From Acidobacteriota bacterium (GTDB lineage Bacteria; Actinomycetota; Acidimicrobiia; Acidimicrobiales; Ilumatobacteraceae), in the NCBI GenBank assembly GCA_018970175.1, contig JAGWWV010000018.1:1-41219 (forward strand): a stretch of DNA of 41,219 bases, in the 5' to 3' direction. The stretch's first letter is position 1. Each line of letters begins with the position of its first letter. This document shows positions 3,658 to 8,456 of this stretch, piece by piece. The position numbers and the translations under genes were made by a program. A model generated the notes under the pieces. That model saw only the letters and a list, made by a program, of their open reading frames with translations, was not told where the DNA came from and ran no database searches.

Positions 3658-4449
3658 TCAGCGCTTGTCGGTGCGCTGATACAAGCGGGTTGCGATCGGT
3701 GCGAACACCACGATCAACAAGACCGCCCATGCGAGGGAGTAGAGCATCGCGTTCTGCAGCGGCCATGAAGTTGGCTCGGGTGTTCCGGCGGGCAGGTTCC
3801 CGAACCGTACGCGCACCGCATGCGTCAGCGTCGACACCGGGTTCCACTCGGCGACCGTCCGCAGAATGCCGGGCAGGTTGTCGGACGGGACGAAGGTGTT
3901 CGCGATGAACGTCAACGGGAACAGCACGATGAACGTCGCATTGTTCACGACTTCGGGTGTCGGCACCATCAGGCCAAGGCACGCCATCACCCACGAGAAC
4001 GAGTACGAGAAAAACAACAGCAACATGTAGGCCGCGACGGCATCGAGAACTGATCCGCGGATTCGCCAGCCAACCGCCAGACCGGCGAGCGACATGATGA
4101 CGACCGACAGTCCGTTGTAGACGACGTCACTCGCGGTGCGTCCGGCGACGACCGCCGACCGTGCCATGGGCAGCGAGCGAAAACGGTTGATGAGACCCTT
4201 CTGGACATCTTCGGCGAGACCCGAGGCGGTGAAGGTGGCGCCGAAGACGACGGTCTGGGCGAAGATGCCCGCGATGAGGAACTCGCGGTAGCTGCCACCG
4301 GGAATGTCGATCGATCCTCCGAAGACGTACGCAAAGAGCAACACGAACATCAACGGCTGCACGAGGACGAAGACCATCACCTCGGGAACACGGCGGATCC
4401 GGATCATGTTCCGTCGGGCAATGGTCGCGGCATCACGCAACATGGTCAT
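3658..4449 (-). CDS. ABC-2 type multidrug exporter permease (DrrB-like)
   Basis: A 263-residue integral membrane protein with about six hydrophobic segments. It starts with a cytosolic stretch (LRDAATIARRNMIRIRRVPEV) typical of DrrB/ABC-2 permeases. The conserved region around VFGGSIDIPGGSYREFLIAGIFAQTV and the later NNATFIVLFPLTFIANTFV are family hallmarks. It would pair with the ATPase encoded immediately upstream on the same strand; the two genes overlap by ATGA (4446-4449), so they are translationally coupled. DrrAB-type exporters extrude drugs or lipids. The cargo is not evident. The operon is divergent from the arsenate operon. Confidence 0.9.
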   Translation of the reverse strand: MTMLRDAATIARRNMIRIRRVPEVMVFVLVQPLMFVLLFAYVFGGSIDIPGGSYREFLIAGIFAQTVVFGATFTASGLAEDVQKGLINRFRSLPMARSAVVAGRTASDVVYNGLSVVIMSLAGLAVGWRIRGSVLDAVAAYMLLLFFSYSFSWVMACLGLMVPTPEVVNNATFIVLFPLTFIANTFVPSDNLPGILRTVAEWNPVSTLTHAVRVRFGNLPAGTPEPTSWPLQNAMLYSLAWAVLLIVVFAPIATRLYQRTDKR

Positions 4450-5432
4450 GACGCGACCTCTTCCTGTGCGCTGTGACCTGTGAGTTCCATGAACACGTCG
4501 TCGAGAGTGGGTCGACGCAGGCCAATGTCGACCACGTCGACTCCGTTGGACTTCAGGTTCGTGAGCACAGATGCCAGCGCACCGACTCCGCTTGCGACCG
4601 GCACCGACACGAGGGATTCGTCGGTGACGATGCGTACCGCGCCCACCGCGACCGAGGCCACGATGGACTCAACCTGCGGAATATCTTCGGGACGCGCGAG
4701 GTGAACGTCGAGATGTTCGCCACCGACGTGGCGCTTCAGTTCCTGTGACGTGCCACGGGCGATGGCGCGACCATGGTCGATGACGACGATTTCGTTGGCC
4801 AGTTGGTCGGCTTCTTCGAGGTACTGGGTGGTGAGCACGACCGTCGTTCCGCCCGCCACGCGGTCCCGAATGGTGTCCCACAGTTCGCCACGGCTGCGCG
4901 GGTCGAGACCGGTCGTCGGCTCGTCGAGGAAGAGGACCGGCGGGTCGGCGAGCAGTGCACCGGCGAGATCGATCCGCCGCCGCATACCACCGGAGAACGT
5001 CTTGAGCGGACGATTCGCCGAGTCGGTCAGGCGAAACTGCTCGATGAGATCAGTTGCACGCCGCCGTGATTCGCGCCGGCGCATTCCGTAGAGGCAACCG
5101 ATCATTTCAAGGTTCTCGATGGCGGTGAGGTGTTCGTCGACCGCGGCGTACTGGCCCGACAGGCCGATGAGCGAGCGAACACCTTGGGGCTCGTTCGCCA
5201 CGTCGACACCCGCGACACGTGCCCACCCTGCGTCGGGTTTGATGAGGGTCGTCAGAACCGAGACCGCGGTGGTCTTTCCGGCGCCGTTCGGACCCAGCAG
5301 TCCGAGCACCGTCCCGGCGGGAACAGCGAGATCGAGGCCATCGAGCGCGGTGACCTCGCCGTACTTCTTCACGATCGCGCTTGCCTCGACCGCAAGTCCG
5401 TCGAAGCGAGGCTTTTCAGGAGCCACTGTCAC
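4446..5432 (-). CDS. ABC exporter ATP-binding protein (DrrA-like)
   Basis: A 328-residue ATPase with Walker A GPNGAGKTTAVS, ABC signature SGGMRRRIDLAGAL and Walker B VLFLDEPTTGLD, followed by the switch region with TTQYLEEADQLA. The C-terminal extension of about 80 residues ends RRPTLDDVFMELTGH, the usual tail of daunorubicin-resistance (DrrA) family ATPases. It energises the downstream DrrB-like permease. The ATG lies 98 bases from the GTG of the divergent ArsR fusion. The intervening bases hold a PHO-box-like repeat and an ArsR-like inverted repeat, so the exporter could share that control; this is inference. Confidence 0.93.
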   Translation of the reverse strand: MTVAPEKPRFDGLAVEASAIVKKYGEVTALDGLDLAVPAGTVLGLLGPNGAGKTTAVSVLTTLIKPDAGWARVAGVDVANEPQGVRSLIGLSGQYAAVDEHLTAIENLEMIGCLYGMRRRESRRRATDLIEQFRLTDSANRPLKTFSGGMRRRIDLAGALLADPPVLFLDEPTTGLDPRSRGELWDTIRDRVAGGTTVVLTTQYLEEADQLANEIVVIDHGRAIARGTSQELKRHVGGEHLDVHLARPEDIPQVESIVASVAVGAVRIVTDESLVSVPVASGVGALASVLTNLKSNGVDVVDIGLRRPTLDDVFMELTGHSAQEEVAS

Positions 5433-5486: not shown

Positions 5487-5507
5487 GCGGATCTCTTGAA
5501 AAAATAT

Positions 5508-5523
5508 CTCAATCGTGTTTGAG
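5508..5523. promoter_or_regulatory. ArsR-type operator candidate
   Basis: CTCAA-TCGTGT-TTGAG is a perfect 5+6+5 inverted repeat just before, and overlapping, the possible starts of the ArsR fusion (TTG 5519, GTG 5531). An additional TTGA at 5496 makes TTGA/TCAA half-sites alternate. ArsR/SmtB regulators bind imperfect palindromes with similar TTGA/TCAA arms overlapping the promoter, so autorepression is likely. Confidence 0.55.
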
Positions 5524-5530
5524 TAATCGC

Positions 5531-6220
5531 GTGGTGCGAAATTCCTTGCAGAAACGAGCTCAATTGCACGCCGCGCTCGGCGATCAGACGCGTTTGGCGA
5601 TTGCCGAGGAGCTTCGGGTGAGTGATCGCTCGCCCAAGGAACTGATGGAGCTGATCAACGTCAAGTCGAACCTGCTTGCCCATCACCTTGATGTTCTCGA
5701 AGAAGCAGGCGCAATCGGGCGGTCACCCTCCGCGGGCGATGCGCGTCGACGCTACGTGCGGCTCACATCGGCGGCGGGAAGATTGCTGGGTACGCCGCCC
5801 GGTGCGCCGATTCGCGACGTGTTGTTTCTCTGTACGCGCAACTCCGCACGATCGCAGTTGGCCGCGGCGTTGTGGAAGTCGCGCACGGGACACGTGGCGC
5901 GTTCCGCCGGAACAAAACCCGCAGCAGCCGTCAACCCCGCCGCCGTGGTGGCCGCCGAACGTGTGGGTCTCTCGCTCGACGGGGCGGTGCCCTCCGCGAT
6001 TGGTCGTGTGGGGCGTGGGGTGCAGGTGATCACGGTGTGCGACCTCGTCCACGAGGAACTCGACGCACCCGTGACGTGGTGGCACTGGTCGATCGCGGCG
6101 CCGTCGGGCTCGGGTCGTGCACAGGCCTACCACGCGGTGGTCGACGAATTGAACACCCGCATGACGCAACTCGGCATTCCGCCGAGTCGCGGTGCAAAAG
6201 GAAAGGACGCGGAGCAATGA
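5531..6220 (+). CDS. ArsR HTH regulator fused to arsenate reductase/LMW phosphatase-like domain
   Basis: From GTG 5531 this is 229 residues. Residues about 5-85 form an ArsR-type winged helix ([18 protein letters not shown], recognition helix near [15 protein letters not shown], wing RRRYVRLT) with no cysteines, so the usual As(III) thiol site is absent. Residues about 95-225 form a low-molecular-weight phosphatase/ArsC domain: P-loop CTRNSAR (Cys101 to Arg107), NPAAV, and VCDL with Cys170. Where ArsC homologues have an Asp-Pro general acid, this protein reads HWSIAAP (Ala189-Ala190). The second redox cysteine is also not visible. Catalysis may be lost and the domain may sense oxyanions. It overlaps the GAPDH gene by ATGA. 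TTG 5519 is an alternative start. Confidence 0.85.
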
Positions 6221-7227
6221 CCGTGCGCATCGGAATCAATGGCTTTGGACGGATCGGCCGCCTCGCGGCGCGCGCTCTTCAGCACCGTCTCGGAGTCGAA
6301 GTCGTTCATGTGAACGAGGTGAAAGGTGGCGTGGAATCGGCGGCACATCTTCTCGAGTTCGACACCGTGCATGGTCGCTATCGCGGTTCGGTGACCGTCG
6401 CGGATGGGGGACTGGCGATCGACGGGCGTCGGGTTGGCTTCTCTGAGCATTCCCGGCCCGCCGACATTCCGTGGGGTGAGTTGGGTGTCGACGTGGTGAT
6501 CGAGTCCTCGGGCAAGTTCAAGACGGTCGAGGATCTGGAGCCGCATCTTGCAAACGGTGCGACGAAGGTTGTCGTCGCCTGTCCGGTGAAAAGCGAAGGT
6601 GTCTTGAACATCGTGATGGGATGCAACGACCATCTCTACGACTCGGCCCTGCACCCGATCGTCACTGCGGCCTCCTGCACGACCAACTGCCTCGCCCCGA
6701 TCGTGAAGGTGCTGCACGAGGGCATCGGCATCGAGCGCGGCGCAATCACGACGGTCCATGACGTCACGAACACGCAGGTCATCGTCGACGCGCCACACAA
6801 GGACCTGCGACGCGCACGTTCGGCGCTCAACTCCCTCGTGCCCACCTCGACTGGTTCGGCGACGGCGATCACCATGATTTACCCCGAGCTGAAGGGAAAA
6901 CTGAACGGAATCGCCGTTCGCGTACCGCTTCTCAACGCCTCGTTGACCGACTGCGTCTTCACGATGTCGCGCAACGTCACCGTGGAGGAAGTGAACGGCA
7001 TGCTCGAGGCCGCCGCCCGCGGGCCACTCCGCGGAATCCTGGGGTTCGAGTCGAAGCCGCTGGTGTCGGCCGACTTTGTCAATGACACGCGGTCGGGAAT
7101 CATCGACGGGCCATCGACGATGATCATCGACGGGAGCATGGTGAAGGTGCTGGCGTGGTACGACAACGAGATGGGTTATGCGCATCGCATGGCCGAGCTC
7201 GTCATCAAGGTCGGCGCCGACTTGTGA
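6217..7227 (+). CDS. ArsJ-associated glyceraldehyde-3-phosphate dehydrogenase
   Basis: A 336-residue GAPDH. Established knowledge: ArsJ-linked GAPDHs use arsenate in place of phosphate to form the unstable 1-arseno-3-phosphoglycerate, which ArsJ exports, giving arsenate resistance without reduction. Visible features are the N-terminal NAD fold ([18 protein letters not shown]), catalytic [10 protein letters not shown] with Cys154, and the activating His181 in TTVHDVTN (glycolytic enzymes usually read TVHAYT). The substrate region [21 protein letters not shown] and the C-terminal [12 protein letters not shown] are also present. The start overlaps the regulator stop, and the stop overlaps the arsJ start, so three genes form one coupled operon. 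Its operon context, more than sequence alone, separates it from glycolytic GAPDH. Confidence 0.92.
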
Positions 7228-8456
7228 AACTGCGCAACTACGTCCTCGTCACTGCGGGTTACTGGGCGTTCACTCTCACCGACGGCGCCTTGCGGATGCT
7301 GGTCCTGCTGCATTTCAACGAGCTGGGGTATTCGGCGGTCTCCATCGCCTTTCTGTTTCTCGCCTACGAGTTCATGGGGATCCTCACGAATCTTCTCGGT
7401 GGCTGGGTCGGTTCACGTCGCGGACTGAACCGCACACTCGTTGCGGGGCTCGTCCTGCAGATCGTGGCTCTGCTGGCTTTGTCGGCGGAATCGAGTAGTT
7501 GGGAGCGGTGGCTCTCGGTTGCGTTCGTGATGGCGATGCAGGCGCTGTCGGGTGTCGCCAAGGATCTGACGAAAATGAGTTCGAAGAGCGCGGTGAAGAC
7601 TGTTGCCGGCGACGGGTCACTCTTCCGCCTGGTCGCGATTCTCACAGGTTCAAAGAACGCGCTGAAAGGCGTCGGCTTCTTTCTCGGGGCCGTGTTGCTC
7701 GCGTGGTTGGGGTACGACGGTGCGTTGTGGGTGATGAGTGCGGTTCTGGCGCTCGTCGTGGTGGTTCTCATCGTCTTCCTGAACGAGGACATCGGGAAGT
7801 CGAAAAAGAAGGCTCCCTTGCGGTCGGTGCTGTCGAAGTCGTCGGCAATCAACCGACTGTCGGTTGCCCGGTTCTTCCTTTTCGGTTCGAGAGACATTTG
7901 GTTCGTCGTTGCCCTGCCGGTGTTTCTGGCCGACGTGCTTGGTTGGTCGCACTACACGGTTGGCGGTTTCCTCGCCGTGTGGGTGATCGGTTACGGCATC
8001 GTTCAATCGTCGGCGCCGCGAATTCTCACCTTGCGTCAGACAGAGATCGACGAGGTGCGCGCCGCGCAGCAGTGGGCCTTCGTTCTGGCCGTCGTGGCGG
8101 CGGTCATCGCGACGCTGGTGGGCCTCGACATCGCGGTCGAAGTCGCCATCGTGGCCGGATTGATCGTGTTCGGGGTGGTGTTCGCGATGAACTCGTCGTT
8201 GCATTCGTACCTCGTTCTTGCATTTTCCGATGACGACGAGGTCGCGCTCGACGTCGGTTTCTATTACTCGGCAAACGCCGCAGGCCGTCTCGTCGGCACC
8301 CTCTTGTCCGGGTTGTTGTATCTGTGGGGCGGGTTGCCATTGGCCATGTGGGGCGCGACTGCTTTCGTCGTGCTCACCGCTCTCTTCGCGCTGCGGCTCC
8401 CGCCCAAACCTGCCAACGTGCGGGTTTCGTTGGCCGAAGTCGACGGAGGTGACTGA
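7224..8456 (+). CDS. arsJ: ArsJ organoarsenical (1-arseno-3-phosphoglycerate) efflux MFS transporter
   Basis: A 410-residue MFS permease with about 11-12 hydrophobic segments. The N-terminus [20 protein letters not shown] with [22 protein letters not shown] is characteristic of ArsJ. Later segments include [21 protein letters not shown] and [22 protein letters not shown]. The start is GTG 7224, overlapping the GAPDH stop (GTGA); longer upstream readings are antisense-like and unnecessary. ArsJ exports the arseno-phosphoglycerate made by the GAPDH, and the compound hydrolyses outside to arsenate. No arsB, acr3 or separate arsC is present here, so this is a self-contained As(V) efflux operon. 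Confidence 0.94.

Follow-up and report, generated by a model that had tools for sequence, protein, structure and literature searches.

An ArsR-ArsC-like fusion at the head of a gapdh-arsJ operon as a candidate direct sensor of arsenate

How does an operon that disposes of arsenate without reducing it detect arsenate? The question is raised by the first gene of a gapdh-arsJ operon in the window, by which we mean the whole stretch of DNA analysed (41,219 nucleotides; contig JAGWWV010000018.1 of assembly GCA_018970175.1, Ilumatobacteraceae). A sequence-only reading of the window had described the product of this gene as an ArsR-ArsC-like fusion and suggested that a catalytically dead ArsC-like domain could have become a sensor of As(V). 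From the comparison of sequences, we hold it moderately probable that the fusion is a direct arsenate-sensing repressor of its own fusion-gapdh-arsJ operon, with the ArsC-like domain as the receptor. If true, an ArsC-derived receptor would answer how gapdh-arsJ operons sense arsenate, and it would both supply biosensors with an arsenate-specific part and show cleanly how an enzyme can turn into a sensor.

5505..5526, + strand: candidate operator TATCTCAATCGTGTTTGAGTAA, with the core CTCAA-N6-TTGAG, CTCAATCGTGTTTGAG, at 5508-5523
5531..6220, + strand: ArsR-LMWP/ArsC fusion, the putative repressor, from GTG 5531 to TGA 6220
5558..5764, + strand: ArsR/SmtB-type winged-helix domain, Cys-free (residues 14-82; NCBIfam NF033788, below cut-off)
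5816..6172, + strand: LMW-phosphatase/ArsC-like domain (residues 100-218; PF01451, NCBIfam ArsC models, PDB ArsC alignments)
6217..7227, + strand: glyceraldehyde-3-phosphate dehydrogenase of the ArsJ operon, gapdh (PF00044/PF02800; 4-nt overlap with the fusion gene)
7224..8456, + strand: ArsJ MFS exporter (NF033734, E=1.4e-166, over cut-off; 4-nt overlap with gapdh)

Both halves of the fusion proposed at 5531-6220 were recovered by profile searches. The N-terminal half matched NCBIfam ArsR (NF033788) at 3.3e-9 with 36 bits, below the cut-off of 55 bits, as well as Pfam HTH_20 (3.8e-5) and HTH_5 (PF01022; 3.7e-4), both slightly below cut-off, and the PDB ArsR 8qkf (4.4e-4); these matches, together with the ArsR-type operator upstream, assign the protein to ArsR/SmtB on its winged-helix HTH. 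The C-terminal half matched Pfam LMWPc over cut-off (1.5e-8, residues 101-217) and NCBIfam arsC_pI258 below cut-off (5.7e-6). By its HTH-LMWP order and full-length homology, the protein belongs with the actinobacterial ArsR-ArsC fusions. The AlphaFold model, made from 3 sequences, is poor (pLDDT 60). The GAPDH and ArsJ claimed downstream were identified as well, by Gp_dh domains and the NF033734 equivalog respectively, and the three genes adjoin.

Residues are numbered from TTG 5519 (P0001), by which Cys101, Arg107 and Cys170 of the earlier reading become C105, R111 and C174. TTG 5519 and GTG 5534 are the other in-frame starts. Since TTG 5519 lies inside the operator, GTG 5531 or 5534 may be the start; an annotated ATG also lies inside the operator in the Rhodococcus erythropolis and Paenarthrobacter fusions, which speaks against ruling out TTG 5519.

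The whole fusion contains two Cys only, C105 and C174. As the sequence-only reading had it, the DNA-binding half (residues 1-92) has no Cys, so no thiol site for As(III) or metal exists there. The key positions of the ArsC-like half are as follows, with conservation counted over the 113 full rows of the family alignment described below.

5831..5851, + strand: P-loop CTRNSAR, C105-R111 (C105 in 113/113 rows, R111 in 112/113)
6038..6040, + strand: C174, equivalent of the first resolving Cys of ArsC (113/113 rows; PDB alignments)
6098..6100, + strand: A194 at the position of the Asp general acid (Asp in 110/110 other rows; Ala in the window and in two congeneric orthologues, L113 and L114)

The CX5R oxyanion loop is complete and near-invariant, and the single further conserved-type Cys is C174, as the earlier reading had held for both. 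In the alignments with the structures 3t38 and 8p5n, C174 falls on the first member of the ArsC Cys pair, and the third ArsC Cys has no Cys counterpart in the window fusion. In the LMWP family, the Asp of an Asp-Pro motif is the general acid. The reported replacement of this motif by HWSIAAP was upheld by alignment without gaps to solved ArsCs (SIAAPSG in the window, ELADPSD in 3t38, PFEDPAA in 8p5n), which puts A194, followed by an invariant Pro (A194-P195), at the acid position; the ArsC structure 3rh0 reads SIEEPDA, and Glu thus occurs there. Compared with thioredoxin-linked ArsC of the LMWP type, the domain has the CX5R P-loop and lacks the set of three catalytic Cys, and the Asp-Pro acid of ArsC and LMW phosphatases is gone. 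In D. indicus ArsC2, three Cys are described as performing the reduction and the P-loop as holding the arsenic ligand (PMC10483234). The fused domain might nevertheless reduce As(V), with the ArsR half sensing the resulting As(III), which is how Paracoccus ArsRC, a protein of the same domain order, is described (PMC9479143); given an HTH half without Cys and the absence of both the third Cys and the Asp, we regard such a coupled signal as very unlikely here.

To place these residues in the family, relatives were collected with the fusion as query. Matches came from 296 of 395 genomes in the class at E<=0.001, among them many plain LMWPs, from 83 of 221 in the taxonomic family at E<=1e-20 and, at E<=1e-15, from 54 of 396 in the phylum. 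The 117 loci fetched, which leave aside some weaker or truncated matches, make 118 fusions with the window; 115 were aligned after L087-L089, weak matches from another fusion family, had been dropped, and 113 full rows remained without L078 and L086, which are cut at contig ends. The resolving Cys pair is absent in 114 of the 115 fusions. Of 70 stand-alone ArsC ORFs beside them, 69 have the pair and 66 carry the W..DP motif. The single exception is L075, because a true ArsC is joined in frame behind its fusion: this 459-aa ORF (L075 5974-7353) unites the ArsR-LMWP fusion and a three-Cys ArsC, that is, sensor-like and catalytic copies, in one chain. Cys is missing from the HTH part in 89 of 111 classed rows, and the one or two Cys found in the other 22 occupy no strongly conserved position. 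Plasmid homologues in Rhodococcus, Arthrobacter, Mycolicibacterium and others are about 43-47% identical with >80% query cover. The second, distant ArsR-LMWP family (L087-L089, L189 and L190) keeps the Asp; its members in L087-L089 have 258-297 aa with no arsenic genes labelled beside them, and those in L189 and L190 have the third Cys.

Residue 194 is Asp in 110 of the full rows and Ala in three, and the two congeneric orthologues with Ala are 66-67% identical to the window fusion. It is the sole column conserved at >=85% that all three have lost. In a tree whose bootstrap had not settled, the three form a clade with support 100/97 and its sister, L115, keeps the Asp; from this topology, the loss looks like one event, retained through at least two splits. 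L115 is the second fusion of the genome of L114 (G463); the two fusion-gapdh-arsJ units of this genome thus differ at column 194, Ala in one and Asp in the other, and offer a natural pair to compare. All 18 further phylum-level homologues examined retain the Asp. A sequencing error or decay behind Ala194 was rejected, as two congeneric orthologues share the Ala, and the Asp loss as the maker of gapdh-arsJ regulators was rejected as well, since the other aligned gapdh-arsJ fusions retain Asp.

With its acid lost, the ArsC-like half could also be without any sensing role, a structural or decaying domain in an operon that is constitutive or otherwise controlled. In line with this, the window alone deviates at two more positions, H139 (His in 108/110 others) and F204 (Phe in 110/110), and the fusion diverges faster than its neighbours: between the window and L114, identity is 67% for the fusion, 92% for GAPDH and 95% for ArsJ, which would be a point for weaker constraint in the Ala clade; dN/dS of GAPDH and ArsJ in the three Asp-less genomes is 0.05-0.08, lower than that of the fusion. 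Against it, 40 columns are conserved at >=97% in the 113 rows, and the three pairs of Asp-less fusions have dN/dS values of 0.12-0.19. Four Asp-bearing pairs give 0.085-0.36. All the dN/dS figures are rough because synonymous sites are near saturation. Decay of the Asp-less fusions was rejected, because 194 is the one column at >=85% that none of the three retains. We consider a non-sensing domain very unlikely.

The 115 fusion loci comprise 42 with fusion-gapdh-arsJ, 2 mixed ones with gapdh-arsJ and arsC, 67 with arsC and/or an aquaglyceroporin-like gene (MIP), here called arsC-type, and 4 unclassed. Neighbour labels derive from seed sequences named by eye, one seed each being checked against NCBIfam; ACR3, ArsI and PstA were over cut-offs, PstB, a label that also takes in other ABC ATPases, was slightly below, and PstS, MIP and ArsC were best matches below cut-off. 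The 67 arsC-type loci, a class defined by ArsC or MIP, include ArsC in 64, MIP in 41, PstS in 12 and ACR3 in 6. On the tree, the context label switches about 5 times, two or three of the switches being forced by branches that are well supported in the unsettled bootstrap. As the fusion serves both contexts, it would be one kind of regulator for two pathways that have arsenate, not arsenite, as their first substrate. The fusion as the reductase of the operon in arsC-type loci was rejected, for a separate ArsC is nearby in 64 of the 67.

A putative operator is common to these contexts. The exact TCAA-N6-TTGA lies upstream of 93 of the 115 fusions, the window included, and a site with <=1 mismatch upstream of 113, while a first-order Markov control gave a mean of 0.41 and a maximum of 3 exact sites and a mean of 8.9 with <=1 mismatch. 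When spacings of 2 to 12 were scanned, spacing 6 gave 100 sites, spacings 2, 3 and 10 gave 6, 4 and 2, and the others none. Exact sites occur in gapdh-arsJ (36/42), arsC-type (53/67), mixed (2/2) and unclassed (2/4) loci, but in only 2 of the 18 loci examined at phylum level. Two further CTCAAN6TTGAG sites lie on contig C47 of the window's genome. A sigma-70 scan upstream of the window fusion found no promoter-like site. On the other side of the operator, a DrrA-like ABC ATPase and an ABC-2 permease are encoded divergently from the fusion (3658-5432, - strand); they are kept in both congeneric Asp-less loci with 88-97% identity, and may share the operator with the fusion.

The neighbours also bear on which ligand is sensed. 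Instead of arsenate, the fusion could respond to another oxyanion, to phosphate, to 1-arseno-3-phosphoglycerate or to oxidation (a C105-C174 disulfide), and it is true that PstS lies near the fusion in 12/67 arsC-type loci and that pstSCAB is divergent from the fusion in Rhodococcus erythropolis PR4. The neighbours are, however, consistently arsenic genes, and the labels PstS and PstC/A occur in none of the 44 gapdh-arsJ loci, the 2 mixed ones included. Phosphate in the cytosol is too high to serve as a useful inducer unless it is bound weakly. These points make such other signals quite unlikely. As for their arrangement, pst genes lie downstream on the opposite strand in 12 loci of the class (L061, L155-L158, L160-L162, L166, L168-L170), and the divergent pstSCAB of R. 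erythropolis PR4 is at L199 1851-5754.

Of the 118 loci, 14 also encode a conventional CxC ArsR within the stretch that was fetched. In R. erythropolis PR4 an ArsR with CC and CVC motifs precedes ACR3, and the fusion, facing pstSCAB, leads an arsC; in Stella, an ArsR with CCGRGRDAC follows arsJ. The conventional ArsR and the fusion seem to divide the work, the one sensing As(III) and the other As(V).

A chosen set of 32 gapdh-arsJ genomes was searched for ArsC and ACR3; G002 and G484, where both operon types exist, lie outside this set. The ArsC query gave 7 matches at E<=1e-12, of which five are the fusion itself and two (G575, G568) are members of the second ArsR-LMWP family with three Cys and DP; no stand-alone LMW-type ArsC was recognised in these 32 genomes. 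The arsC-context genomes, chosen for a nearby arsC or MIP, matched the same query in 26 of 26 cases at 50-88%. A PF01451 search showed that some of the 32 encode further LMWPs; a PF03960-type protein is present in 24 and an ACR3-like gene in 22, some at only 35-37% identity. In the three congeneric Asp-less genomes we found neither type of ArsC (PF03960 included), nor ACR3 or ArsB; G000 and G461 have no LMWP besides the fusion, and both LMWPs of G463 are fusions. Because these genomes are 90, 77 and 87% complete, the absence is likely but not certain. It agrees with the earlier argument that the operon serves an As(V) route without reduction. G521 and G444, which are gapdh-arsJ genomes, keep the Asp though neither type of ArsC nor ACR3 was found there, so the acid chemistry appears to matter in most members; losing the Asp may simply have made the protein work less well.

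As(III) itself could be the signal, bound by C105 and C174 as a two-thiol site in the ArsC-like domain that replaces the lost HTH site. Two Cys can bind As(III), which is a point against As(V) sensing, and both are invariant; a crystal structure of D. indicus ArsC2 is reported to hold arsenite at its P-loop Cys (PMC10483234). ACR3 is near the fusion in 8 of the 44 gapdh-arsJ loci, the 2 mixed ones included, and 22/32 genomes have ACR3-like genes, so in these As(III) could matter as a signal. But gapdh-arsJ is not known as an export route for As(III), the window genus yielded no ArsC, ACR3 or ArsB, and conservation extends beyond the two Cys to R111 and the other residues of the P-loop, which is an oxyanion site. 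We therefore take As(III) sensing to be unlikely.

An ArsR-LMWP fusion, distant from the window's, also stands directly 5' of gapdh and arsJ in Stella vacuolata (L003) and on five plasmids (L230-L234), from Cereibacter sphaeroides 2.4.1, Rhodobacter capsulatus SB 1003, Paracoccus liaowanqingii, Tistrella mobilis and Neotabrizicola shimadae. Besides Stella, six of at least 25 listed records were examined, and the sixth, Sphingobium baderi, has ArsR-arsC-ACR3 instead. The HTH part of the six alphaproteobacterial fusions contains 0, 0, 1, 1, 1 and 3 Cys, and the exact TCAA-N6-TTGA matched in none of the six loci. They may still reduce arsenate, because three catalytic-type Cys are present in five of the six and DP in all; the plasmid fusions of the laboratory strains C. 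sphaeroides 2.4.1 and R. capsulatus SB 1003 represent a related version, still with three Cys. The five plasmid fusions are annotated merely as 'metalloregulator ArsR/SmtB family transcription factor'. The presence of ArsR-LMWP before gapdh-arsJ both in the window's class and in Alphaproteobacteria reflects either separate origin or transfer.

For direct arsenate sensing, the following course would be consistent with the above. A dimer of the fusion would sit on CTCAA-N6-TTGAG and block transcription. Intracellular arsenate would bind the P-loop and be attacked by C105, and the reaction would halt early, as a Cys-arsenate adduct or a C105-C174 disulfide; it is expected to stall because the third Cys is absent and, in the window genus, the acid too. 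The altered ArsC-like domain would then release the DNA, whereupon GAPDH would make 1-arseno-3-phosphoglycerate for export by ArsJ, a pathway known from the literature. Sensing through the P-loop is probably covalent: the invariance of C105 and C174 suggests thiol chemistry with arsenate rather than passive binding of an oxyanion, and attack by C105 would explain how arsenate is told from abundant phosphate.

The As(V) proposal of the earlier reading draws support from the Asp loss, the intact P-loop, the HTH half without Cys for As(III) and the non-reducing pathway. What needs correction is the place of the Asp loss in this proposal. The protein seems not to have been made a sensor by the Asp loss, because 110 Asp-bearing rows share the missing third Cys and the operator; a sensor role would also predate the loss because arsC-type loci carry a separate ArsC next door. 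We infer that direct As(V) sensing through the P-loop is older than the Asp loss. If the sensor role is real, the whole fusion family would share it, and the Asp would have been lost later, in the window genus. More tentatively, the fused domain of that genus might be a pseudo-enzyme, a ligand- or adduct-gated arsenate receptor that tells As(V) from phosphate by a stalled Cys-arsenate bond, in cells never making As(III), with ArsR-LMWP heading gapdh-arsJ in Alphaproteobacteria too; this fuller picture is possible but somewhat doubtful.

Several known systems are related to the window fusion. One is Paracoccus ArsRC, also an ArsR fused to ArsC and a route to an arsenate response, which is described as sensing arsenate by reduction and subsequent As(III) binding (PMC9479143, citing Chen et al. 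2022, Environ Microbiol 24:1977); going by that description, the window fusion lacks the residues for both steps, since its HTH is Cys-free and the third Cys and the Asp are missing. Thermus thermophilus TtSmtB, likewise an ArsR-family repressor proposed as an arsenate sensor, is reported to prefer arsenate and to respond to As(V) and As(III) (PMC5658604), but it is given there as a protein of 123 aa without an ArsC domain and with an ELCVCD box. The ArsR of the Vibrio cholerae var operon shares the control of gapdh-arsJ, which is induced by As(V), and its sensing of As(V) is only suspected; no ArsC fusion is described for this protein in the available part of the paper (PMC9601151). Thioredoxin-linked ArsC (pI258, B. 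subtilis, D. indicus ArsC2) shares with the window domain the LMWP family by sequence, CX5R and the first resolving Cys, whereas the window domain lacks the third Cys and the Asp and is fused to an HTH.

The architecture as such has been published, with ArsR-ArsC fusions in Actinobacteria clusters C4 and C7 (PMC6514093) and in Microbacterium, Sinorhizobium and Leptospirillum (PMC6205960), as far as the available text of these papers goes. RER_RS00775 of R. erythropolis PR4, the first of a locus range given in PMC6514093, is a member of the present family. The two actinobacterial plasmid loci examined lie beside arsC and keep the Asp, in contrast to the window with gapdh-arsJ and Ala. Among the literature matches listed, most subscription papers being outside their scope, there was no study of a fusion without the As(III) site, the third Cys and the Asp, and none of the TCAA-N6-TTGA operator. 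ArsRC fusions are already known, and within these listed matches the variant that dispenses with the As(III) site, the third Cys and the Asp would be new.
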